A stretch of DNA of 64,000 nucleotides from Polaribacter vadi (GTDB lineage: Bacteria > Bacteroidota > Bacteroidia > Flavobacteriales > Flavobacteriaceae): the NCBI RefSeq assembly GCF_001761365.1, contig NZ_CP017477.1, forward strand, positions 1,262,501-1,326,500, written 5' to 3'. A program made the translations under genes and the position numbers. Of the stretch, positions 1-12,313 are shown piece after piece. The notes under the pieces were generated by a model. It saw only the letters and a program-made list of their open reading frames with translations. It searched no databases and was not told where the DNA came from. Every line of letters begins with the position of its first letter. Position 1 is the first letter of the stretch.

Positions 1-2085
1 CAAGATGAAATTTATAATAATAGTGCAACTTCTATTATAAATGCTTCTGCAAACGGAATGTTACTCAATAAAATACCTGCAAGAATTTCTATAGGAAGAA
101 CTTTTCAAGAAGGATTGCAGTTAACCTCTAGATTTGAAAGAAATAATGCCTCTTTTAATCTAAACCCTAACTTCTTAAACAACAGTTTAAAAATTAGTGT
201 TAATGGTAATGCTTCTTTTGAAAGAAATAGATTTGCTTCAGGTCAAGCAGCAAATGCATTAACTTTCGATCCTACACAACCTGTTTATGATGAAAACTCA
301 CCATTTGGAGGTTACTTTCAGTATTATACAGATAATAATGATGGTGTAATTAATGAAGATGATTTAACTGCATTAGCTCCATTTAATCCTTTGGCTGAGT
401 TATTACAAAGAAGAAGTATAAGTAATATTCAGCGTTTTTATGGGAATGTTAAAATAGATTATAATTTTAATTTTTTACCAGAATTATCTGCAGTTTTAAA
501 TGTAGGTATGGATAAACAAAATGCTGATGGTACAGTAAGGGTTTCTGATAAAAATCCTTTAGCTCAGAATGATGGAAGTTTGGTGGGTTCTTATTCAGAA
601 TACACAAACAGTCAAAATAACACACTTTTAGACGGGTATTTATCTTATAATAAAGAATGGAATAATTTTAATGTTGATGGAACTGCTGGATATTCTTATC
701 AAAAATTCACCAATAAAAGATATGTAAGTGGCGAATTGTTAGATGATGGTCCAGATTCTGAACCAGTAAACAATGTAGATCCTAATTTGGTACTAATTGG
801 TTTTTTTGGTAGAGCAAATTTTTCATTTTACGATAAATATTTACTTACACTTTCTTACAGAAGAGATGGTACATCAAGATTTAGTAAAGAAAATAGATGG
901 GGTAATTTTCCATCTGCAGCAATTGCTTGGAAAATAAAAGAAGATTTGTTTCCAGAATCTGAAAACCTATCATCTTTAAAATTAAGATTAGGTTGGGGTA
1001 TTACAGGTCAACAAGATATTGGTAGAAATAATTTAGATTTATTTTTATCTAGATATATAAGAGGTTTACCAAGTTCTCAATATATTTTTGGAGATACTAC
1101 AACACCTGTTGGGATACCACAATTTAGAAATGAAGAACTAAAATGGGAAGAAACTACAACGTATAACATAGGTTTTGATTATGGTTTATTTAACGATAAA
1201 ATTACAGGTTCTTTAGAAGGGTTTTATAAAGAATCTAAAGATTTATTATCTAATGCAGCTATTTCTGATGGTTCTAATTTTAGTAATTCTGGTTTTCAAA
1301 ACATAGGGAATTTCACTTCTCAAGGTATTGAATTTTCAATTGGAGGTGATTTAATTACCAATGATGATGGTTTAAATATCGATTTTAATTTCAACACTAC
1401 TTTTATCAAAACAGAAATTAAAAAGTTAGCATTAGATCAAGATCAATTAGTTGGTGGCGCAGATGGTGGAACAGGAAATACAGCCCAAATTCATAGAGAA
1501 GGTTTTACGCCATTTTCATTTTTTGTATATAAGCAAGTTTACGATAGCAACAATAATCCTATAGAAGGCGCTTATGCAGATTTAAATGGAGATAATTTAA
1601 TTACAGATGCAGATAAATATATTCATCATAATGGAGCTCCTTCTGTAACATTTGGTTATGCATCAAACTTTTACTATAAAAACTTTGATTTATCTTTTAA
1701 TTTAAGAGCCAATATAGATAATTACGTCTATAATAATGTAAACTCCTCTAGAGCTCAATATGATTTGCTAGAGAACAGTTCTGTAGTTGCAAATTTACCA
1801 ACATCAGTATTACAATCTAATTTTAATACCACAGAAAATGTAATACTTTCTGATTATTATATAGAAAACGCTTCTTTTTTAAGGATGGACAACATAACTA
1901 CTGGCTATACTTTTAATGAAATTTTTAGCAATAAATCTTCCATCAGATTATCAGCAAGTGTTCAAAATGTATTCGTAATTACAAATTACTCAGGTTTAGA
2001 TCCAGAAGTATTTAATAATGGAATAGACAATACTATTACACCAAGACCAAGAACTTTTACCATTGGTGCAAACATAAAATTTTAA
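1..2085 (+). CDS. SusC-like TonB-dependent outer-membrane transporter, 5' partial
   Basis: The reading frame is open from base 1 (starting Q-D-E-I-Y), so the first ATG at 58 is internal and the signal peptide, plug and TonB box lie upstream of the window. What remains is about 694 residues of beta-barrel rich in aromatic and Asn residues, ending in a typical outer-membrane C terminus (FTIGANIKF, terminal Phe). SusC proteins import oligosaccharides across the outer membrane with a SusD lid, powered by TonB. The next gene, 10 bp away, is susD, and GH53 and GH2 genes follow, so the cargo is inferred to be beta-1,4-galactan oligosaccharides. The SusC/RagA family assignment is firm; the substrate is an inference from neighbours. 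Confidence 0.93.
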   Translation, partial: QDEIYNNSATSIINASANGMLLNKIPARISIGRTFQEGLQLTSRFERNNASFNLNPNFLNNSLKISVNGNASFERNRFASGQAANALTFDPTQPVYDENSPFGGYFQYYTDNNDGVINEDDLTALAPFNPLAELLQRRSISNIQRFYGNVKIDYNFNFLPELSAVLNVGMDKQNADGTVRVSDKNPLAQNDGSLVGSYSEYTNSQNNTLLDGYLSYNKEWNNFNVDGTAGYSYQKFTNKRYVSGELLDDGPDSEPVNNVDPNLVLIGFFGRANFSFYDKYLLTLSYRRDGTSRFSKENRWGNFPSAAIAWKIKEDLFPESENLSSLKLRLGWGITGQQDIGRNNLDLFLSRYIRGLPSSQYIFGDTTTPVGIPQFRNEELKWEETTTYNIGFDYGLFNDKITGSLEGFYKESKDLLSNAAISDGSNFSNSGFQNIGNFTSQGIEFSIGGDLITNDDGLNIDFNFNTTFIKTEIKKLALDQDQLVGGADGGTGNTAQIHREGFTPFSFFVYKQVYDSNNNPIEGAYADLNGDNLITDADKYIHHNGAPSVTFGYASNFYYKNFDLSFNLRANIDNYVYNNVNSSRAQYDLLENSSVVANLPTSVLQSNFNTTENVILSDYYIENASFLRMDNITTGYTFNEIFSNKSSIRLSASVQNVFVITNYSGLDPEVFNNGIDNTITPRPRTFTIGANIKF

Positions 2086-2095
2086 ATAAAAAAAG

Positions 2096-3694
2096 ATGAA
2101 AAAAAGACAATTATTATTAATAACAAGCTGTTTTCTACTTCTTTTTATAGTAGGATGTACCAATGATTTAAACATACTTCCAGAAGATGAAAATACTTTT
2201 TTGGTCGATGATTTTTACAATTCTCCAGAAGCTTACAAACAAGGTTTGGCTGGTGTTTATGGAAATTTAACCTTAACAAGTTCTCAAGGTCCAGGAGAAT
2301 CTAATATTACTGGTTTAGATGCTGGTACAAGTCAATATGGAAGAGGATTATGGAATTTACAAGAACTAACTACAGATGAAGCAAAATGGACTTGGGAAAA
2401 TGATCCTGGTTTAAGAGATTTAAATAGAAATATTTGGACTTCAGAAAACGTAATTTTAAGAGGCTTTTTTGGAAGATGTATGACACAAGTGTCTTTTGCA
2501 AACGAGTATTTAAGACAAACTTCAGATGAAGTACTACAATCTAGAGGTGTTTCTGAAACCTTAAAAAATGAAATCGTTATTTACAGAGCAGAAGTTCGTT
2601 TTTTAAGAGCTCTTGCCTACTATCATATGATGGATTTGTTTGGAAAAGCAGGCTTCATTACAGAGGAAGATCCTGTAGGCGCATATCAATCACCACAATA
2701 TGACAGATTTCAATTATTTGAATATATAGAGTCTGAGTTGTTAGATATTTTACCAACTTTAAAAGATCCTTTACAAAACGAATATGCAAGAGTTGATAAA
2801 GGTGCAGCTTGGATGTTACTTGCAAAAATTTATCTAAATGCAGAAGTATATATACAAGAAGATAAGTATGCTGAATGTTTAGAATATTGTGAAAAAATTA
2901 TTGCTGGTGGATATATCCTAGCTCCTAATTACTCAAATATTTTTAAAGCAGACAACAATTCTAACAATGCCAGAAATGAAATAATTTTTCCAATAATTTC
3001 AGATGGAATTGTCTCACAAAATTATGGGCCAACAACAGTAGCTGTGAATGGTCAAGTTGGTTCTTTAGAAAGCAATGGTTCAGAATTTGGTGTAACTTCT
3101 GGTGGCTGGGGAGGCGCTTTGCGTGTAACTCGTCAATTTTCTGAAACGATGTTAAATGGTAATTATAATGCTGATGACAGAAATACCATTATAAGTGCCA
3201 ACAGAACCATTGAAATAACAAACATTAGCAATAATGGAACTGGATATGTAATTACTAAATGGTCTAATAAAACTTCTTCTGGGGCAAATGGTTCTGCGAA
3301 CGAAATTGTTGATACTGATTTTCCATTATTTAGATTGGCAGATGTGTATATGATGTATGCAGAATCTGTAGTTAGAGGTGGTGGTGGTTCTACAGCTACA
3401 GCCGTAAATTATATAAATCAGTTAAGAGCAAGATCCAATAACAACAATAGTATTTCATCATCAGATTTAAATCTAGACTTAATTCTTAAAGAGCGTTTAG
3501 TGGAATTACATTGGGAAGGTCATAGAAGACAAGACTTAATCCGTTTTAATAAATATACTGGAGGTAGTTACAACTGGTCTTGGAAGGGTAATTCAGTTTC
3601 TGGAATTCCTTTAGACAATAGCAGAAGTGTTTTTCCAATTCCTAGTGCAAGTTTAGCTGCAAATCCAAATCTTACTCAAAATCAAGGTTATTAA
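2096..3694 (+). CDS. SusD/RagB family glycan-binding lipoprotein
   Basis: A 532-residue protein with a lipoprotein signal (hydrophobic run followed by FIVGC, acylated Cys about residue 21). The helical SusD core contains EVRFLRALAYYHMMDLFG, the family's TPR-like helix, and the C-terminal half has RLADVYMMYAESV and the ERLVELHWEGHRRQDLIRF stretch characteristic of RagB/SusD. The family sits on the cell surface, closes over SusC and captures oligosaccharides. It lies 10 bp downstream of susC and 18 bp upstream of susE, so the three are co-transcribed. The ligand is inferred to be galactan from the downstream galactanases. Length is usual for the family. Confidence 0.95.
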   Translation: MKKRQLLLITSCFLLLFIVGCTNDLNILPEDENTFLVDDFYNSPEAYKQGLAGVYGNLTLTSSQGPGESNITGLDAGTSQYGRGLWNLQELTTDEAKWTWENDPGLRDLNRNIWTSENVILRGFFGRCMTQVSFANEYLRQTSDEVLQSRGVSETLKNEIVIYRAEVRFLRALAYYHMMDLFGKAGFITEEDPVGAYQSPQYDRFQLFEYIESELLDILPTLKDPLQNEYARVDKGAAWMLLAKIYLNAEVYIQEDKYAECLEYCEKIIAGGYILAPNYSNIFKADNNSNNARNEIIFPIISDGIVSQNYGPTTVAVNGQVGSLESNGSEFGVTSGGWGGALRVTRQFSETMLNGNYNADDRNTIISANRTIEITNISNNGTGYVITKWSNKTSSGANGSANEIVDTDFPLFRLADVYMMYAESVVRGGGGSTATAVNYINQLRARSNNNNSISSSDLNLDLILKERLVELHWEGHRRQDLIRFNKYTGGSYNWSWKGNSVSGIPLDNSRSVFPIPSASLAANPNLTQNQGY

Positions 3695-3712: not shown

Positions 3713-4843
3713 ATGAAAAAATTACTTTTAAAATCTTTAGCAATAATTATTCTTATCACATTTTATTCATGTGAAGAAGAAAACGCTCCAATTTTTGTTG
3801 CACAACCAGATGTAGATGGTATTATATTTACAAATTCTTTTGCATCAAATTATTTAATTTCTGAGGCAACAAAAGAAAATATTGGAGATCGATTAATCTG
3901 GGAGTCTGCAGATTTTGGTGTAACCACTAACGTTACTTACGAGATTCAAGGTTCTATAGACCCTACTTTTAGTACGTTTACTATTATTGGTACTACAAAT
4001 GAAAACAACTTTCCAGTTACCATTTCTAATTTTTTAGATTTTGCAAAAGAATTGGGTTTAGATGCAGATCCAAGTACCACAGATAGTGCTGGTTTGGCAA
4101 ATAATGTTGGTCAATTTTTTGTTAGAATCAAAGCAAATGTGGGTACAACAGATAATTTAACTACATATTCTGAGTTCGAAACCATCAACATAACTTGGTT
4201 AGAAGATATCCCAACAAATACATGTAATTCTTTATATGTTTTAGGGGAAGGTATTACTGATATTGGATGGAACTTTCCAGGAATAGAACTTACTTGTGAT
4301 ACGAATGTTTTAAAAGCTAAAGCAAGATTAGGAAATGCTAATTTTAGGTTTTTTACAACTGTTGGAGATTGGGATTCTGGTTTAGATTACAACTACTTTG
4401 AAAATGAAGGGTATACTATTGATGCAAATTTAGAAAATGCAGGAGATAATTTTAGTTTTATAGGTACTCCTGGTATTTACACCATAACAATTGACGATGC
4501 TAACAAAACCATTCAATTAGAAGCATCATCTTCTCTTTGGGCAGTTGGAGATGCTGTACCTGGAGGTTGGAGTTTTAGTGGAGATACTGTAGAATTTATA
4601 GAAAACACTCCAGACATATGGTCTGCATCTATAGAATTAAACAATAACATCTTTAGATTTTTCCAAACATTTGGCACTTATGATACCAATAACAATTTTC
4701 AATATTATATAGATCAAGGATTTACTATAGATTCTAATTTTGAAAGTGATGGAGGTCCAGATGCAAATTTCAACTTTATAGGAACAGCAGGTAGCTATAA
4801 TTTAACTATAAATGCTGTAGAAAAAACGATTACACTAAATTAA
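3713..4843 (+). CDS. SusE-like surface glycan-binding lipoprotein
   Basis: A 376-residue lipoprotein (signal ending TFYSC, Cys about residue 20). The N-terminal part resembles the SusE Ig-like domain. The rest is two tandem modules of about 100 residues (about 170-268 and 273-376) that share FRFFxTxG, an aromatic stretch, FTID-N-E, NFxFIGTxGxY and a terminal KTIxL strand. Such repeated modules in SusE/SusF bind starch; here the same architecture in a galactan locus suggests two galactan-binding sites. It is the third gene of the susCDE block and is followed by a strong hairpin (4851-4884). The family is clear from architecture and position; binding specificity is inferred. Confidence 0.88.
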   Translation: MKKLLLKSLAIIILITFYSCEEENAPIFVAQPDVDGIIFTNSFASNYLISEATKENIGDRLIWESADFGVTTNVTYEIQGSIDPTFSTFTIIGTTNENNFPVTISNFLDFAKELGLDADPSTTDSAGLANNVGQFFVRIKANVGTTDNLTTYSEFETINITWLEDIPTNTCNSLYVLGEGITDIGWNFPGIELTCDTNVLKAKARLGNANFRFFTTVGDWDSGLDYNYFENEGYTIDANLENAGDNFSFIGTPGIYTITIDDANKTIQLEASSSLWAVGDAVPGGWSFSGDTVEFIENTPDIWSASIELNNNIFRFFQTFGTYDTNNNFQYYIDQGFTIDSNFESDGGPDANFNFIGTAGSYNLTINAVEKTITLN

Positions 4844-4902: not shown

Positions 4903-5562
4903 ATGAAAAAAAAATTACTTTTTACTGCACTATGCATTTCTTCTTTTTTAAATGCACAATCAATTAGCTTTACTTCTGCAGCGTTAACAAATGCAGAAAT
5001 AGGCAGTACAATTACTGTAGATTTTACATATTCTATATCTGCAGATGGTTATATTTATTCTGCTATAGAACTTCAAGATGATTTTACCTATCAATCTACT
5101 ATTGTAGATGCCGAATTAAATCCAGCAGTTGCTGGCACAGATGTTACTGGCTCTTTTACGTTTACCATTCCAGAAAGCACAACACCAACAAGTGATTTAA
5201 CAGGAAACTTAAATTATAAAATAAAAATTGAACTAAAAGATGGTAGTTTTAGTTATTTAGCAGGACAATTTCCTGATACAGAAATAAATATAACTTCATC
5301 TAATCTTAGTGTTGATGATTTTAGTAATACTTTAAGTGATATAGAAGCATATCCTAATCCTGCTAAAAATAAAATTTATTTTCAGAATTTAAAGAATGAT
5401 GTAGATTATAAAGCATTTATTTTTAATATTTTAGGAAAAAATATTTTATCAGTAAATCAATTAGAAAATGGCATTGATATTTCTAGTTTAAATGATGGTA
5501 TATATTTGTTATCAATTAAATCAAACAATAAGGTAAAGAATTTAAAATTCATTAAAAACTAA
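4903..5562 (+). CDS. Small T9SS-secreted protein, candidate galactan-binding domain
   Basis: A 219-residue protein with a Sec signal peptide (cleavage after LNAQ, about residue 19), a Ser/Thr-rich beta-type domain (about 20-132) and a T9SS type A sorting domain (about 145-219, starting near YPNP and ending LKFIKN). The middle domain resembles the N-terminal domain (about 20-145) of the T9SS-borne GH53 at 9002-10663: both begin QSI, share IY-x-x-(I/L)-E-x-x-D, then TYQST, and later Y-x-(I/V)-K-x-x-L. No catalytic motif is visible. I infer a secreted or surface glycan-binding protein of the galactan locus. The domain is not one I can name. Its position between susE and the glycosidases supports a role in substrate capture. 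Confidence 0.75.
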   Translation: MKKKLLFTALCISSFLNAQSISFTSAALTNAEIGSTITVDFTYSISADGYIYSAIELQDDFTYQSTIVDAELNPAVAGTDVTGSFTFTIPESTTPTSDLTGNLNYKIKIELKDGSFSYLAGQFPDTEINITSSNLSVDDFSNTLSDIEAYPNPAKNKIYFQNLKNDVDYKAFIFNILGKNILSVNQLENGIDISSLNDGIYLLSIKSNNKVKNLKFIKN

Positions 5563-5586
5563 TTTAATAAAAAGGAAAAATTATAG

Positions 5587-7905
5587 ATGAGCAAACAGAA
5601 TATTTTAGTTATTATTTGCATAAGCTTTTTATTTTTAAGCTGTAAAGAAAACAAAACTTCGGTTGTTGTTGATAAAATAAAATTTAATAACAATTGGGCG
5701 TTTAAACGTATTGAAAATCAAAATGTAGATAGTTTATTTTTTGAAAAAAAAATAGATACTAAAAATTGGGATGCTGTTCAATTACCTCACACAACAAAGG
5801 TTGAGCCAAAAATTGTAAACAATCAATGGCAAGGTATTTCTTGGTATCGTAAAAATTTTAAGCTTACCAATGAAATGAAAAATAAAAAATTATTTTTCAA
5901 ATTTGAAGGAGCAATGAATATTGCTGAAGTTTGGGTAAACGAAAAAAAGCTTATCAAACATCAAGGTGGCTATTTACCTTTTATGATAGACTTTACAGAG
6001 GTAGCTGATTTCGAAAACGAAAATACAATTGCAGTTAAGTTAAATAATGAAGACAATCCAGTTACTGGGCCAAAACCTCTTAAAACATTAGATTTTAATA
6101 CGTATGGTGGTATCTATAGAAATGTTTGGTTAATCGCTAAAAATCCTTTGCATATTACAGATCCTATTTATGCTAATAAAAAAGCTAGTGGAGGTATTTT
6201 TGTTTCTTATCCAGAAGTTTCAGAAGAATTGGCTAAAATTAAAATTCAAACTCATGTTAAGAATGAAGATTTGGGTAAAAATTCATTCATCATAAAAAAT
6301 ACTTTACTTAAAAATGATGTAGAAGTTATTTCTTTTGAAAGTAAAGAACAAATTTTAAACTCGAACCAAGAACAAGAATTCGTTAATAATTTAACGATAG
6401 ATAATCCAGAATTATGGTCGCCAAATTCACCAAGTTTATATCTTTTAAAAACAGAAATTATTCAAGATGGTAAAACTGTTGATAAAGAAATTACTAGAAT
6501 AGGTATTAAAACTGTAAAGTTTATTGATCAAGATTTGTATTTAAATGGGAAAAAAACTTTCTTGAGAGGTGTTAACAGACATCAAGAATATCCTTATATA
6601 GGGTATGCACTTTCAGATAATGCAAATTATAGAGATGCCAAAAAAATAAAAGAAGCTGGATTCGATTATGTACGATTATCTCATTATCCACAAAGCAACT
6701 CTTTTATGGATGCTTGTGATGAATTAGGTTTAGTTACTATTGATGCCATTTTAGGTTGGCAATATTTTAGCAAAGACAAAGAATTTCAAGAACATGTTTT
6801 TCAAGCTTCAAAAAATTTGATACGAAGAGATAGAAATCATGCATCTGTATTAGCTTGGGAAGTTTCTTTGAACGAATCTTGGATGCCAGAATCATTTATA
6901 GATAAACTAACCAAAATTGCGCACGAAGAATATCCAGGAGATCAATGTTTTACTGCTGGTTGGCAATCTTATGGATATGATATTTACTTACAAGCGCGCC
7001 AACACAGATTGCAACATTATGACTCTACTTTAACAAAACCATACAATGTTTCTGAATATGGAGATTGGGAATATTATGCCATGAATGCAGGTTTAAATCA
7101 AGATGATTGGAGTGGTTTATTGCAAGAAGAACGTTCTAGCAGACAATTAAGGTCTGCAGGAGAAAAAGCATTATTGCAACAAGTAAAAAATATTCAAGAA
7201 GCACATAATGACAATTTAAAAACGCCAGCATTTGCTGATGGTTATTGGGTGATGTACGATTATAACAGAGGATATTCTAACGATTTAGAATCCTCTGGAA
7301 TTATGGATATTTTTAGAGTTCCAAAACCCTCTTACTACTTTTATCAAAGTCAGAGAAATTACAACGATCCCTTTGGGAAACCTGTTTTATATATTGCCAA
7401 CAATTGGCAAGAAAACAGTCCATTAGAGGTCACAATTTTTAGCAATTGCGATGAAGTGGAGTTGTTTTTAAATGGTAAAAGCTTAGGACGTCAAAAACCA
7501 GATAGCAATCGAGTTTCAGATAAATTAAACCATCCACCATTTACATTTTCTATAGCAAAATTTGAAAAAGGAACATTAGAGGCGAAAGGTTATTTTGATA
7601 ATGAAATCATAATATCTGATAAAAGAGAGACTCCTGGCAAAGCATCAACAATAAAAATTAAAATTGATAATGATTATCAAAATTTAAAAAATGAAGATAC
7701 AGACGTATTTTTTGTCCATGCTTATGTTACAGATGATAATGGTATTCTTGTAGCTGATTCTACTGATAAAATTCTTTTCAAAGTTGATGGTAAAGCAGAA
7801 ATAATAGGTAAAGAATCAGTTATTGCAGAAGCAGGAATTGCATCAATATTAGTAAAAACAAGTGATATAAAAAACGTTACAATCGAAGCTAATTTTCATA
7901 ATTAA
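5587..7905 (+). CDS. GH2 beta-galactosidase, lipoprotein
   Basis: A 772-residue GH2 enzyme with a lipoprotein signal (FLFLSCKEN). The jelly-roll sugar-binding domain comes first (about 30-190, with QLPHT and NTYGGIYRNVWL), then the Ig-like domain and a TIM barrel that begins near KTFLRGVNRHQEYP. The likely acid/base is Glu430 (SLNESW) and the nucleophile Glu490 (NVSEYGDW). A C-terminal beta domain follows (about 600-772, with EVELFLNGKSLG). It would release galactose from the non-reducing ends of galacto-oligosaccharides. The lipid anchor suggests the periplasmic or outer-membrane face. It is placed 24 bp after the small T9SS gene and 23 bp before GH53. Another GH2 specificity is possible, but the GH53 neighbours favour beta-galactosidase. 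Confidence 0.9.
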   Translation: MSKQNILVIICISFLFLSCKENKTSVVVDKIKFNNNWAFKRIENQNVDSLFFEKKIDTKNWDAVQLPHTTKVEPKIVNNQWQGISWYRKNFKLTNEMKNKKLFFKFEGAMNIAEVWVNEKKLIKHQGGYLPFMIDFTEVADFENENTIAVKLNNEDNPVTGPKPLKTLDFNTYGGIYRNVWLIAKNPLHITDPIYANKKASGGIFVSYPEVSEELAKIKIQTHVKNEDLGKNSFIIKNTLLKNDVEVISFESKEQILNSNQEQEFVNNLTIDNPELWSPNSPSLYLLKTEIIQDGKTVDKEITRIGIKTVKFIDQDLYLNGKKTFLRGVNRHQEYPYIGYALSDNANYRDAKKIKEAGFDYVRLSHYPQSNSFMDACDELGLVTIDAILGWQYFSKDKEFQEHVFQASKNLIRRDRNHASVLAWEVSLNESWMPESFIDKLTKIAHEEYPGDQCFTAGWQSYGYDIYLQARQHRLQHYDSTLTKPYNVSEYGDWEYYAMNAGLNQDDWSGLLQEERSSRQLRSAGEKALLQQVKNIQEAHNDNLKTPAFADGYWVMYDYNRGYSNDLESSGIMDIFRVPKPSYYFYQSQRNYNDPFGKPVLYIANNWQENSPLEVTIFSNCDEVELFLNGKSLGRQKPDSNRVSDKLNHPPFTFSIAKFEKGTLEAKGYFDNEIIISDKRETPGKASTIKIKIDNDYQNLKNEDTDVFFVHAYVTDDNGILVADSTDKILFKVDGKAEIIGKESVIAEAGIASILVKTSDIKNVTIEANFHN

Positions 7906-7928
7906 AAGACTTTTAAAACTACTCAAAA

Positions 7929-8969
7929 ATGATATCAACAAAAAAAATAACACTAATTTTATTTTTAGTATTTCTATCTCAAACAACATTTAGTCAAGAA
8001 TATATGGTGGGTGCAGATTTATCATTTGTTAAAGAAGCAGAAGATAAAGGGTTTTCTTTTAAGGAAAATAACATCGCAAAACCAGGATTAGACATTTTTA
8101 GAGAACATGGTTATAATTGGATTCGATTGCGATTATTTAACTCTCCAAAAGAACTGCCAAACGATTTAGAATATACAATTGCTTTAGCTAAAGAAGCAAA
8201 AAAGAAAGGCTATAAATTTTTATTAGATTACCACTACTCAGATACTTGGGCAGATCCACAAAAACAATTTGTACCAAAAGCTTGGGAAGGAAAAACCCAA
8301 AAAGAAGTAGAACAGTTGGTTTATGAATTTACCAAAGAAACTATGATTGCTTTTCGAGAAGCAGACGTATATCCAGATATGGTTCAGATTGGTAATGAAA
8401 TAAGTAATGGAATGATTTGGCCTTATGGAAAATTACCAGAAAATTGGGATAATTTAGCGGCTTTTCTAAAGGCAGGTATCAACGGTGTTTACGCTAGTAT
8501 TGGTAACAATTCATCACCAAAAATTATGATTCATATTGATAAAGGAGGTGATAAAGAATTCACTAAATATTGGTTTGATAAATTACATAAATACGATATA
8601 AAGTATGATGTAATTGGGCAATCTTATTATCCTTGGTGGCATGGAAGTTTGCTAGATTTAAGAGAATGTTTAAACTTTGCAGCGCTAACCTATAAAAAAG
8701 ATATTGTTCTTGTAGAAACAGCTTACAACCACAGTCCTGCAGAATATATTAATAAAAAACCTCCTTTTCCTGAAACTGCTGAAGGGCAAAAAGAATTTTT
8801 AGAAGAAGTAAATAACATTATATTAAACATACCAGAAAATAGAGGAAAAGGTCTTTTTTGGTGGGAACCTGCAGCACCAAACAAAGGTTTTTCCTACAGA
8901 ACTTATTTTGATGAAAATGGAAATGTGAAGCCTGTGATAAATGTTTTCGATAAATATGTTAGACATTAA
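7929..8969 (+). CDS. GH53 endo-beta-1,4-galactanase, Sec-exported
   Basis: A 346-residue protein: signal peptide (to about residue 22, ending TTFSQ) followed directly by a complete GH53 TIM barrel. The family motif is MVQIGNEISNGMIWP with acid/base Glu157, and the nucleophile is Glu263 (VLVETAYNH). DYHYSDTWADPQKQ is also typical of the family. GH53 enzymes cut internal beta-1,4-galactosyl bonds in pectic galactan and arabinogalactan I. Unlike its neighbour at 9002 it has no T9SS sorting domain and no lipobox Cys, so I infer a soluble periplasmic enzyme acting on imported oligosaccharides. Confidence 0.93.
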   Translation: MISTKKITLILFLVFLSQTTFSQEYMVGADLSFVKEAEDKGFSFKENNIAKPGLDIFREHGYNWIRLRLFNSPKELPNDLEYTIALAKEAKKKGYKFLLDYHYSDTWADPQKQFVPKAWEGKTQKEVEQLVYEFTKETMIAFREADVYPDMVQIGNEISNGMIWPYGKLPENWDNLAAFLKAGINGVYASIGNNSSPKIMIHIDKGGDKEFTKYWFDKLHKYDIKYDVIGQSYYPWWHGSLLDLRECLNFAALTYKKDIVLVETAYNHSPAEYINKKPPFPETAEGQKEFLEEVNNIILNIPENRGKGLFWWEPAAPNKGFSYRTYFDENGNVKPVINVFDKYVRH

Positions 8970-9001
8970 AAAAACAAATACAACTAAAACAGATGTGTGT
9001 G

Positions 9002-10663
9002 ATGAATAAATTTTTGCTTACAATAATGTCTCTTTTTTTTACCTGTTTACTAACAGGTCAATCTATAGAAATTGTTTCTTATGGAGAAAACCCATTAGAG
9101 GTTAATCCTTTATTAGGAACTAATTTGAACATCAATTATAAGTATACAAGTGAAACTGGTTCTACTGGCAATCATATTTATATTGGCTTAGAAATATTAG
9201 ATGAAAATAACACCTATCAATCTACCGTAAAAGAAATTACGCTTAATAACCAACCTGTTGGTAATAATACCCAAAATTCAGTATCGTTTTTTATTGGGAG
9301 TATAAATACCTTATCAGAAAATTTACCTAATGGATATTATTATCAGGTAAAAGCTGTTTTATATGCAAGTGGTGGTTGGATACAAAATGCAATAGCTGAT
9401 TATAGAAATACTCCTGCATTAGTTTTACAAGATACAAGCAATACTGTTTTAAGTACAAACCCTATTGCCAAAGGAGCAGACATTAGTTGGATGACTGAAA
9501 TGGAATCTAGAGGTTTTGATTGGCAAGATAATAGTGGAACAAAAAAAGAATTATTACCTTTACTGAAAGAATATCAACTAGATGCTGTAAGGTTAAGAGT
9601 TTGGGTTAATCCAGAAAATTCTGCTGCAAATGGTTGGTGTGATATTGAGGATTTAGTAAAAAAAGCAGAATTAGCAAATGCCTTAAATATGGATATTATG
9701 GTCTGTATTCATTACAGTGATTGGTGGGCAGATCCTGGAAAACAAAATAAACCTGCAGCTTGGTCTAGTTATTCTGTTTCACAATTAGAAACAGCTGTAG
9801 CAAATCATACTACAGATATTTTAAATGCGTTAAATGAAAAAGGAATCATACCAAAATGGGTTCAAGTTGGTAATGAAACAAGTGATGGAATGCTGTGGAC
9901 AACAGGTAAAGCTTCAACAGGTGGTTTTGCAAATTATTCTAAATTTATAAATGCTGGTTTAAATGCAGTTAAAAATTTTAATACCAATATAAAAACAATA
10001 TTACATCTTGCAACAGGAAATGATAATCCCTTATTTAGATGGAATATTGGAGGTTTAGTAAATAATGGTTTAAATACGAATAAACTAGATATTATAGGTA
10101 TGTCTTTATATCCAAATGAAGACAATTGGAAAAATATGGTAGATGACACCTATAATAATATGGTAGATTTAAAAACTCGTTATCAAAAAGATGTTATGAT
10201 GGTAGAAATTGGCTTTAATGCAAATCAACCAGAAATTTCTCACCAATTTGTAAAATATATGATTGAAAAAACAAGACAAGCTCAAGGTTTAGGTGTTTTT
10301 TATTGGGAACCAATCGCACATAATAATTGGAATTCATATTCCAAAGGTGCTTGGGATTCAGATGGAAGTCCATCTATTGTTATGGACGCTTTTAAAAATG
10401 AAACTCCACTAAGTGTAGAAAATTTAATGGTTAGAAATAAACAAGAGTTTTCTGTATTTCCAAATCCTAGTAATAATTTAATTACTGTAAAATCTTCTTG
10501 CTCAGTTCTAAAATCGATCAAAATATATGATAGTTCAGGTAAATTAATTAAAAGTATAAAAAAAGAAAGTGCTTCTAAACCTATTGATATTTCTAAATTA
10601 ATAGCTGGTATTTATGTCTTAAAAATAAATAATTCGAAATCAATAAAATTTATTAAAAACTAA
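9002..10663 (+). CDS. GH53 endo-beta-1,4-galactanase with N-terminal accessory domain and T9SS sorting domain
   Basis: A 553-residue protein with the layout signal peptide, accessory beta domain (about 20-145), GH53 barrel (about 155-470), T9SS type A sorting domain (about 480-553, starting near FPNPS, ending KFIKN). Catalytic residues are visible: Glu292 in WVQVGNETSDGMLW and Glu402 in MMVEIGFN; the HYSDWWADPGKQ stretch is conserved. The accessory domain is related to the 219-residue protein encoded at 4903. The T9SS domain implies export through the outer membrane and surface attachment or release, so this is the enzyme that opens the polymer outside the cell. An in-frame ATG at 8993 would add MCV; I chose 9002 because it begins a normal MNKF signal peptide. 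Confidence 0.92.
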   Translation: MNKFLLTIMSLFFTCLLTGQSIEIVSYGENPLEVNPLLGTNLNINYKYTSETGSTGNHIYIGLEILDENNTYQSTVKEITLNNQPVGNNTQNSVSFFIGSINTLSENLPNGYYYQVKAVLYASGGWIQNAIADYRNTPALVLQDTSNTVLSTNPIAKGADISWMTEMESRGFDWQDNSGTKKELLPLLKEYQLDAVRLRVWVNPENSAANGWCDIEDLVKKAELANALNMDIMVCIHYSDWWADPGKQNKPAAWSSYSVSQLETAVANHTTDILNALNEKGIIPKWVQVGNETSDGMLWTTGKASTGGFANYSKFINAGLNAVKNFNTNIKTILHLATGNDNPLFRWNIGGLVNNGLNTNKLDIIGMSLYPNEDNWKNMVDDTYNNMVDLKTRYQKDVMMVEIGFNANQPEISHQFVKYMIEKTRQAQGLGVFYWEPIAHNNWNSYSKGAWDSDGSPSIVMDAFKNETPLSVENLMVRNKQEFSVFPNPSNNLITVKSSCSVLKSIKIYDSSGKLIKSIKKESASKPIDISKLIAGIYVLKINNSKSIKFIKN

Positions 10664-10666
10664 TTC

Positions 10667-12313
10667 ATGCAAATATTATCTTTTTTAGGCTTTACAATTT
10701 TAGTTGCAGTAATCTCTTATCTAGCCACTAGAAAAACAGCCGAGACTTCATCTGATGGGTATTTTTTAGGTGGCAGAAGTTTAACTGCAGGAGTTATTGC
10801 AGGGTCGTTATTACTAACCAATTTATCTACAGAACAAATTGTAGGTTTAAATGGATCCGCTTATACAAGTGGTTTATCTGTAATGGTTTGGGAAACTTTA
10901 GCGGCTATTGCCATGGTAGTTACAGCCGTTTATTTATTGCCAAAATATTTAAAAAGCGGATTAACAACAGTACCTGGTTTTTTAAAAAAACGCTTTGATG
11001 TTACTACAAAAACCTTAACCTCTATACTATTCTTAACAGGATATGTAGTTGTGCTTTTACCTGTCATTTTATATTCTGGATCATTAGCTATAAGTGGTAT
11101 GTTTGATATTCCTACTTTATTAGGAGTTACACATACTCAATCTATTTGGATCTGTGTATGGGGTATAGGAATTATCGGTTCTATTTACGCAGTATTTGGT
11201 GGTTTAAAAGCTGTTGCAGTTTCAGATTCTATAAACGCAGTAGGTTTACTAATTGGTGGTATATTAATACCTTTCTTTGGATTATTACTAATTGGTGATG
11301 GTAATTTATTTGACGGATTAAACATATTGGTAACAGAAAATCCAGAGAAATTTAAATCTATGGGTAGCAAAACAGATCCAGTACCATTTTACACCATTTT
11401 TACTGGAATGATGTTAGTTCAATTATTTTATTGGGGTACTAATCAGCAAATTATTCAAAGAGCTTTAGGTGCAAAGAACTTAAAAGAAGGTCAAAAAGGA
11501 TTGTTATTGGCCTCATTTATCAAAATTTTAGGGCCATTAATTGTAGTATTACCTGGTTTAATAGCATATCATATTTTTGAAGGAAGTTTAGAAACTGCAG
11601 ATAGTGCTTATCCAATGTTAGTGAAAAAAGTATTACCTCAAGAATGGGTTGGCTTTTTTGCAGCTGTTTTATTTGGAGCAATTTTAAGCTCTTTTAATAG
11701 TGTTTTAAATAGTTCTGTTACCTTATTTGGTATAGATGTTTACAAACAACATATCAATAAAAATGCGGATGAAAAAACAATCGTAAAATATGGAAAAACC
11801 TTTGGAGTTATTTTAGCAATAGCAGCCATGTGTATTGCTCCATTAATTGCAAATGCTGGTAGTTTGTTTGATTATTTACAGGAAATAAATGGTATTTATA
11901 GTATTCCTATTTTAACAATTATTGTGGTTGGTTTTACCACTAAAAGAGTACCAGCTATTGCTGCTAAAATTGGTTTAATATCTGGTTGTTTGCTCTATAT
12001 AATTAGTCAGTTTTTTTTACAACCTTATTTTATAAATACAGCTTTAGCAGAAGCAAAATTAAACGGAATTATAGAAGCTTCAGAATTAGCGTTAATAGAA
12101 TCACAAGCATATCCACATTTTTTAGATGTGATGGCAATTCTATTTGTTTTAAATATATTGATAATGCTTATAATAGGTAAATTAAAACCAAGAGAAATTG
12201 CGTATTCACAAGAGTACACAAAACAAGTAAATATTTCTCCTTGGAAATACGTGAATCAAGTAAGTATTATAATTTGTGTGATTGTTATAGGTGTTTATAT
12301 CTATTTTGCATAA
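10667..12313 (+). CDS. SGLT-like sodium/sugar symporter (SSS family)
   Basis: A 548-residue polytopic membrane protein of the solute:sodium symporter family, with about 14 predicted membrane helices. The N terminus has SSDGYFLGGRSLTAG and SLLLTNLSTEQIVGLNG, close to the pattern of the Vibrio sodium/galactose transporter; a QQIIQRALGAKN loop and a C-terminal pair of helices follow. It begins 3 bp after the secreted GH53 gene and is the last gene of the locus. I infer inner-membrane import of galactose released by the GH2 enzyme, coupled to sodium. The SSS family is certain; galactose as substrate rests on resemblance and context. Confidence 0.88.
   Translation: MQILSFLGFTILVAVISYLATRKTAETSSDGYFLGGRSLTAGVIAGSLLLTNLSTEQIVGLNGSAYTSGLSVMVWETLAAIAMVVTAVYLLPKYLKSGLTTVPGFLKKRFDVTTKTLTSILFLTGYVVVLLPVILYSGSLAISGMFDIPTLLGVTHTQSIWICVWGIGIIGSIYAVFGGLKAVAVSDSINAVGLLIGGILIPFFGLLLIGDGNLFDGLNILVTENPEKFKSMGSKTDPVPFYTIFTGMMLVQLFYWGTNQQIIQRALGAKNLKEGQKGLLLASFIKILGPLIVVLPGLIAYHIFEGSLETADSAYPMLVKKVLPQEWVGFFAAVLFGAILSSFNSVLNSSVTLFGIDVYKQHINKNADEKTIVKYGKTFGVILAIAAMCIAPLIANAGSLFDYLQEINGIYSIPILTIIVVGFTTKRVPAIAAKIGLISGCLLYIISQFFLQPYFINTALAEAKLNGIIEASELALIESQAYPHFLDVMAILFVLNILIMLIIGKLKPREIAYSQEYTKQVNISPWKYVNQVSIIICVIVIGVYIYFA

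Follow-up and report, generated by a model that had tools for sequence, protein, structure and literature searches.

A beta-sandwich domain shared by a small T9SS-tailed protein and a GH53 endo-galactanase of Polaribacter vadi, a probable galactan-binding relative of agarose-binding modules

A stretch of 64,000 nucleotides from Polaribacter vadi (NZ_CP017477.1, positions 1,262,501 to 1,326,500; hereafter the window) carries most of a galactan utilisation locus, in which one domain occurs twice: in a 219-residue protein (the free form) and at the N-terminus of a 556-residue GH53 endo-beta-1,4-galactanase, both ending in a sorting tail of the type IX secretion system (T9SS). We consider it probable that this domain is a non-catalytic, beta-sandwich carbohydrate-binding module (CBM) for galactan, a sister family of the agarose-binding module 8WAC, which is used both as a free protein and on GH53. 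The original prediction of a CBM that serves both within an enzyme and, by itself, as a binder on the cell surface is therefore supported, with agarose- and porphyran-binding modules as the best structural matches of the modelled free form. The two proteins and their parts are as follows.

4903..5562, + strand: free form, a predicted secreted protein of 219 residues (signal peptide by eye, domain, T9SS type A tail; open reading frame with PF18962, 2.4e-11, and TIGR04183, 1.1e-12)
4957..5304, + strand: domain in the free form, residues 19-134, predicted beta-sandwich
5347..5559, + strand: T9SS sorting tail of the free form, residues 149-219 (TIGR04183 149-219)
8993..10663, + strand: predicted secreted GH53 endo-beta-1,4-galactanase of 556 residues, with N-terminal domain and T9SS tail (alternative start ATG at 9002)
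9059..9436, + strand: domain in the 556-residue GH53, residues 23-148 (similarity to the free form; model strands)
9458..10402, + strand: GH53 catalytic barrel, residues about 156-470 (PF07745 160-455; model range 156-468)
10454..10660, + strand: T9SS sorting tail of the 556-residue GH53, residues 488-556 (TIGR04183 488-556)

That one domain is common to both proteins is confirmed by blastp (E value 7e-8) and by a Smith-Waterman score of 94 between the free and GH53-borne domains; shuffled sequences gave a mean of 30.9 (s.d. 5.8, maximum 70) and 0 of 5000 reached 94, which rules out chance similarity. Profile-profile comparison gave 98.4% (E value 8.4e-15) with the full proteins and 98.35% (E value 1e-14) with the cut-out domains. 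A free-form profile, built from 50 of 87 single-domain sequences once near-copies had been removed, and leaving out the tail-only matches P0106 and P0107, 18 two-copy relatives and the tail-less P0105, recovers 110 of 110 GH53-borne relatives, the worst with a domain E value of 4.3e-7 in a set of 217. Similarity through the T9SS tail alone was considered and rejected; P0106 and P0107, which match only in the tail, are the two weakest free-form relatives.

All of the motifs named in the original prediction are present in the 219-residue protein and the GH53, respectively: QSI at residues 19 and 23, IYxx(I/L)ExxD at 51 and 62, TYQST at 62 and 74, and Yx(I/V)KxxL at 105 and 117. Two of them carry less weight than was supposed. 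TYQST is shared by the pair but is no family signature, as Trp dominates columns 61 (39/50) and 63 (43/50) of the free relatives, and the common QSI start is less telling because it sits at the apparent signal-peptide junction (by eye). The boundaries proposed were about 20-132 and 20-145; the model strands span residues 20-131 in the free form and 24 to about 146 in the GH53, where the main run of strands covers 24-135 and a short pair extends it to 146. In the predicted structures the main strands are common to both domains and stand in the same order. No unrelated known family was found above cut-off for either domain. Neither of the contrary outcomes foreseen with the prediction, different folds or hits to unrelated families, thus appeared.

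The only solved sequence relative of weight in a PDB profile search is the agarose-binding module 8WAC (profile E value 6.5e-5), which we take to be CBM101; sequence homology to it is thus found at the profile level. In a fold search, the two best structural matches of the free-form model (mean pLDDT, the predicted local distance difference test score, 86.5 for the 219-residue protein) are 8WAC and the porphyran-binding 8WAE, presumably CBM99, and the free form adopts in its model the beta-sandwich fold of 8WAC with 19% identity over the structural alignment. 8WAE, which binds a different type of red-algal galactan, gave no sequence match up to E 10 in profile searches. In the tabulated part of a review (PMC11122601), CBM101 is listed as a beta-sandwich with agarose as ligand and CBM99 with porphyran. 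Comparison of the free, GH53-borne and combined profiles with one of 12 agarase-type copies, i.e., copies of the 8WAC type, gave 92.5, 92.1 and 95.5%, respectively; 0 of 200 shuffles scored as high in each case, reversed sequences gave at most 1.2%, and another option of the same comparison gave 81.2% (free) and 73.0% (GH53-borne).

A tree built from 62 domains places the 12 agarase-type copies (eight on enzymes, four free) together on one side of a branch with support 98/97, and their clade includes 0 of the 39 galactan-locus copies. The 11 GH53-borne copies form a branch of their own (support 100/100), for which reason a recent duplication of the free gene into the neighbouring GH53 gene was rejected; the GH95-borne copy and two copies on T9SS proteins of 642 and 652 residues arise separately within the free forms. 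A distant group of domains falls outside the branch of 39. Being a sister clade of an established CBM type, the galactan-locus domains would constitute a new family or subfamily; the earlier description as an undescribed CBM thus stands as to the family, but not as to the kind, which is known.

The company kept by the 8WAC type is different. A search with the 8WAC stretch, covering 349 genomes of the family, gave matches at E ≤ 0.1 in 42, mostly weak ones. Clear copies lie near the N-terminus of five proteins of 832-863 residues, of which the two scanned have porphyranase-type domains, and one of these two closely resembles the beta-agarase 8H97, with the GH86 porphyranase 4AW7 also a relative; others are on a protein of 873 residues that matches GH16 weakly and on one of 600 residues that is similar by eye. 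Free proteins of this type have 218, 209 and 232 residues, and the tails of two of the three resemble that of the window protein in blastp. One free copy (L103) adjoins SusC, SusD and a porphyranase-type gene, and the surroundings of another (L107) include genes for an aldehyde dehydrogenase, an epimerase, a sodium symporter and an enzyme of the enolase superfamily, a set resembling what we take to be the known anhydro-L-galactose route. Whereas the agarase-type copies have GH86-type or GH16-like enzymes, the partners on the galactan side are GH53, GH95 and an unknown T9SS protein; attachment to agarases or location in agarose loci was not found for the galactan-locus copies, and GH53 was present in 13 of 13 of their loci. 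A further free agarase-type copy, in genome G169 (L104:8544-9173), is not part of a polysaccharide locus that could be recognised; glycosyltransferase and YfhO-type genes are close by, the stretch has no SusC, SusD or GH53 relative, and none of the five neighbours scanned is an agarase by Pfam.

CBM61 also occurs on GH53 enzymes, and its ligand would be the one proposed for the present domain. No CBM61 structure is named among the rows of the PDB profile search or the fold list, which leaves room for a distant likeness. Two papers (PMC5943554, PMC3824205) describe CBM61 as galactan-binding. Across the domain there is no Pfam-A, NCBIfam or PHROG model above its cut-off, and a viral fold library gave generic matches only. 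PF27624, a Pfam family more recent than the release searched and assigned by the protein database to two relatives (P0078, P0096), may or may not be this domain. No paper describing the domain was found in the open-access literature, judged from titles and abstract openings.

The assignment of beta-1,4-galactan as a possible ligand rests on gene context. Thirty stretches were annotated on the galactan side, L118, L119 and L122 repeating others under named records, and these provide 13 distinct loci: the window, G234, two in G213, G204, G212, G259, G250, G140, G113, G302, L120 and L121. The count covers galactan-locus free or multi-copy forms only; outside it are distant copies (L061, L062, L066, L067, L070, L073), a decayed GH53-borne remnant (L124), a GH86-like carrier (L125), the agarase-type copy of G169, and weak matches in G005, G180 and G002, in which the domain profiles find no copy at E 0.01. 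All 13 of the 13 loci have a GH53 relative in the cluster (in G140 about 11.6 kb from the free gene). GH53 is the sole enzyme family found in all, GH2 relatives being present in 9 of 13. In the genus sample GH53 is found in 25 of 97 genomes, including 7 of the 7 with a galactan-locus form not borne on GH53 (3.7e-5 by a simple draw, uncorrected for kinship); G222 and G243, which have distant or agarase-type copies and lack GH53, are not among the seven.

The domain has the general character of a CBM, being a discrete, contiguous, non-catalytic fold which precedes the GH53 barrel, lies near the C-terminus of a GH95, and forms a free protein. The free relatives have 11 mostly aromatic columns, and the Polaribacter porphyrae copy (P0023) is an example of a Trp-rich relative. 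In columns 61, 63, 118 and 123, four chosen by us (column 41 likewise exchanges Tyr and Phe), Trp, Tyr and Phe replace one another while the position is aromatic in 48, 50, 49 and 50 of 50 rows, respectively, the behaviour that would be expected of sugar-stacking positions.

In the proposed mechanism, the N-terminal domain would hold the exported GH53 on its polymer, while the free protein, on the cell surface or released, would retain chains of beta-1,4-galactan close to both the enzyme and the SusCD pore. Export of both proteins, as originally predicted, and their display at the surface are suggested by a start that resembles a signal peptide (by eye) and by a C-terminal sorting domain of T9SS type A, TIGR04183 being above cut-off in both. 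The free form may thereby act as an extra surface glycan-binding protein that is delivered by the T9SS rather than by the lipoprotein route. Its role in the locus would then equal that of the SusE/SusF-type proteins, from which it differs in that it ends in a T9SS tail, lacks a lipoprotein signal (by eye) and does not match the SusE family of Pfam.

To the extent that sequence and models can show, the domain represents the branch from beta-1,4-galactan loci within a fold for which the solved structures are agarose and porphyran binders. We infer carbohydrate binding as such, together with beta-1,4-galactan as the ligand. More tentatively, with the balance slightly against it, we envisage a flavobacterial beta-sandwich superfamily split by galactan type (agarose, porphyran, beta-1,4-galactan), with members that are borne on enzymes or exported free (in the two branches followed by sequence) and up to five copies in a row; it would make a second class of surface glycan-binding proteins beside SusE/F, and its galactan branch a new CBM family. 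If galactan binding is true, marine Bacteroidota loci gain a T9SS-delivered binding protein now annotated as hypothetical, and the domain supplies a probe for beta-1,4-galactan. Likewise, a module family with ligands differing by galactan type would make the evolution of specificity testable with few constructs.

Several results weigh against a galactan-binding sister family of 8WAC. We found no binding measurement for the galactan branch. 8WAC is absent at E ≤ 10 from single-sequence searches with both window proteins, the link being made by profiles only. With the whole two-domain model, Foldseek ranks 8WAC 15th (E value 3.3e-5, target TM-score 0.70), after two-domain immunoglobulin (Ig)-like proteins, and the structural comparison rests on the free form, as fold searches with the whole GH53 model were filled by GH53 and other barrels. 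The branch of 39 galactan-locus copies has moderate support (86/88). The distant group has the same fold in L061, L062, L066, L067 and L073 with no GH53 match in the stretch read, and thus the fold overall is not galactan-specific. Half of the genus genomes with a GH53-borne domain (6/12) have no free form, three of these six being at most 82% complete, so the pair is not obligatory; genome G204, in turn, has free copies and no GH53-borne one. Finally, the GH53-borne domain of the window has Ile134 and Arg138 where Trp stands in 39/48 and 44/48 rows, respectively, and its binding may therefore be weakened. Among its relatives, P0108 (a near-copy), P0110 and P0112 also lack both Trp residues and G234 lacks one, while P0113 keeps both. 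Because of this loss, we regard the free form as the more certain binder in this locus.

Three other explanations were considered. The one we take most seriously, although we think it somewhat doubtful, partly overlaps the preferred reading: the ligand could be another galactan or one with decorations (for instance an algal galactan bearing acetyl, fucosyl or L-galactosyl groups, or a side chain of pectin), of whose epitope linear beta-1,4-galactan is only part. A GDSL-type esterase relative in 9 of 13 loci, a GH43 relative in 2 of 13, and, in one locus, the GH95 that itself bears the domain all agree with this, GH95 being a family of fucosidases and L-galactosidases, as does the fact that the nearest solved relatives bind agarose and porphyran rather than beta-1,4-galactan. 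The enzymes recognised in the window locus, however, are one GH2 and two GH53, and GH53 is the only enzyme family present throughout the 13 loci, with GH2 in nine.

It is unlikely that the domain is a structural Ig-like spacer, or a folding or export aid for T9SS cargo, which binds no sugar. Many unrelated Ig-like proteins do rank below the two binding modules in the fold search, the distant group sits in assorted T9SS proteins, and relative P0003 has a sub-threshold match (20.1 bits, cut-off 24.4) to NPCBM_assoc, a companion of binding modules. But a spacer would need neither a stand-alone gene with constantly aromatic columns, nor five- and three-copy arrays in a galactan locus, nor steady GH53 company, and the two best-matching structures are binding modules. 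Much less likely still is a protein-protein adaptor, in which the free form docks the GH53 or the SusCD complex by self-pairing of the free and enzyme-borne domains. In its favour, the free gene directly follows susE and is clustered with the enzyme, but the 6 of 12 genus genomes with the enzyme-borne copy alone, and G204 with the opposite arrangement, argue against it.

The locus, as read from open reading frames and Pfam/NCBIfam matches, has the order SusC (3' part), SusD, SusE, 219-residue protein, GH2, GH53, 556-residue GH53 and symporter, so that the free gene is directly 3' of susE and in the same cluster as the 556-residue GH53. The remaining genes of the window locus are the following.

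58..2085, + strand: SusC-type TonB-dependent transporter, 3' part of a 991-residue gene that starts upstream of the window (TIGR04056 2.2e-108, just below cut-off for this partial gene)
2096..3694, + strand: SusD-type lipoprotein (PF07980 1.5e-34)
3713..4843, + strand: SusE-type surface lipoprotein (PF14292 5.7e-8)
5587..7905, + strand: GH2 beta-galactosidase-like enzyme (PF02836 2.5e-23, PF02837 1.3e-16)
7929..8969, + strand: GH53 that lacks the domain and has no match to a T9SS tail (PF07745 3.5e-89, the only Pfam/NCBIfam model above cut-off)
10667..12313, + strand: sodium:solute (sugar) symporter, last gene of the locus (PF00474 1.8e-48; NF007790 above cut-off)

Upstream of the window lies the rest of susC, preceded by a 1340-residue regulator that is 49% identical to a protein with Reg_prop (regulator-propeller), HisKA (kinase), response-regulator (receiver) and HTH (DNA-binding) domains. 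The 556-residue enzyme has the characteristics of GH53, namely the barrel and both Glu residues at the positions that we take to be catalytic, which are kept in 48/48 rows.

The public protein search returned 107 relatives of the 219-residue protein, two through the tail only, and 110 of the GH53-borne domain, all with a GH53 Pfam domain; the source names given for some are Polaribacter, Flavobacterium, Mariniflexile, and unnamed Flavobacteriaceae or Flavobacteriales. In genome surveys, which were samples (with at most 11 first-look candidates scored per genome for family and phylum), the domain was found in 16 of 97 genomes of the genus (G222, G243 and G267 holding a distant, weak or decayed copy only), in at least 8 of 397 of the family, and in at least 3 of 395 of the phylum, where the two beyond the own genome are marginal. 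Genome stretches were read in successive sets of 20, 10, 5, 1, 2 and 3, leaving out G520, G725 and the second place in G477 (358-359 kb).

The carriers are varied. In Flavobacterium luteum (L121:9932-14846), proteins of 138 (one copy), 888 (five copies) and 458 residues (three copies) lie between SusC and a GH53-GH2 pair, which they directly precede; the five-copy protein has further, non-matching stretches ahead of its T9SS tail. The GH95 with the domain near its C-terminus (L056:5535-9728) also has a galactose-binding-like domain. At L054:13510-15468 the domain is at the N-terminus of the 642/652-residue T9SS proteins, and a PDB search with the 652-residue fusion protein gave nothing of weight. 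An enzyme-like protein of 849-854 residues (L054:10751-13309, with relatives in L056, L057, L058 and L060) is found repeatedly in the richer galactan loci; neither of the two scanned matches a Pfam family, and an 852-residue one has partial GH5-like matches only in the PDB search (GH5 mannanase likeness in part).

Other observations concern single genomes. The own genome encodes at G000:C1:2328747-2329451 (L061:8676-9731) a 351-residue T9SS protein that contains the domain twice, in distant copies, and adjoins a GH3, and a similar protein is found in G222. In G267 (L124:9718-10071) a related locus has the decayed GH53-borne remnant, without catalytic part, between its GH2 and its symporter. 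A contig labelled Porphyromonas cangingivalis from a metagenome assembly (L120), a label that looks doubtful, has a two-copy family protein with SusCD and GH53. In G302 (L065:10317-12764) an 815-residue protein joins GH53 to a SusE-like part, and in G140 (L113:3382-6429) one protein combines a GH2 beta-galactosidase-like enzyme with a polysaccharide deacetylase domain.
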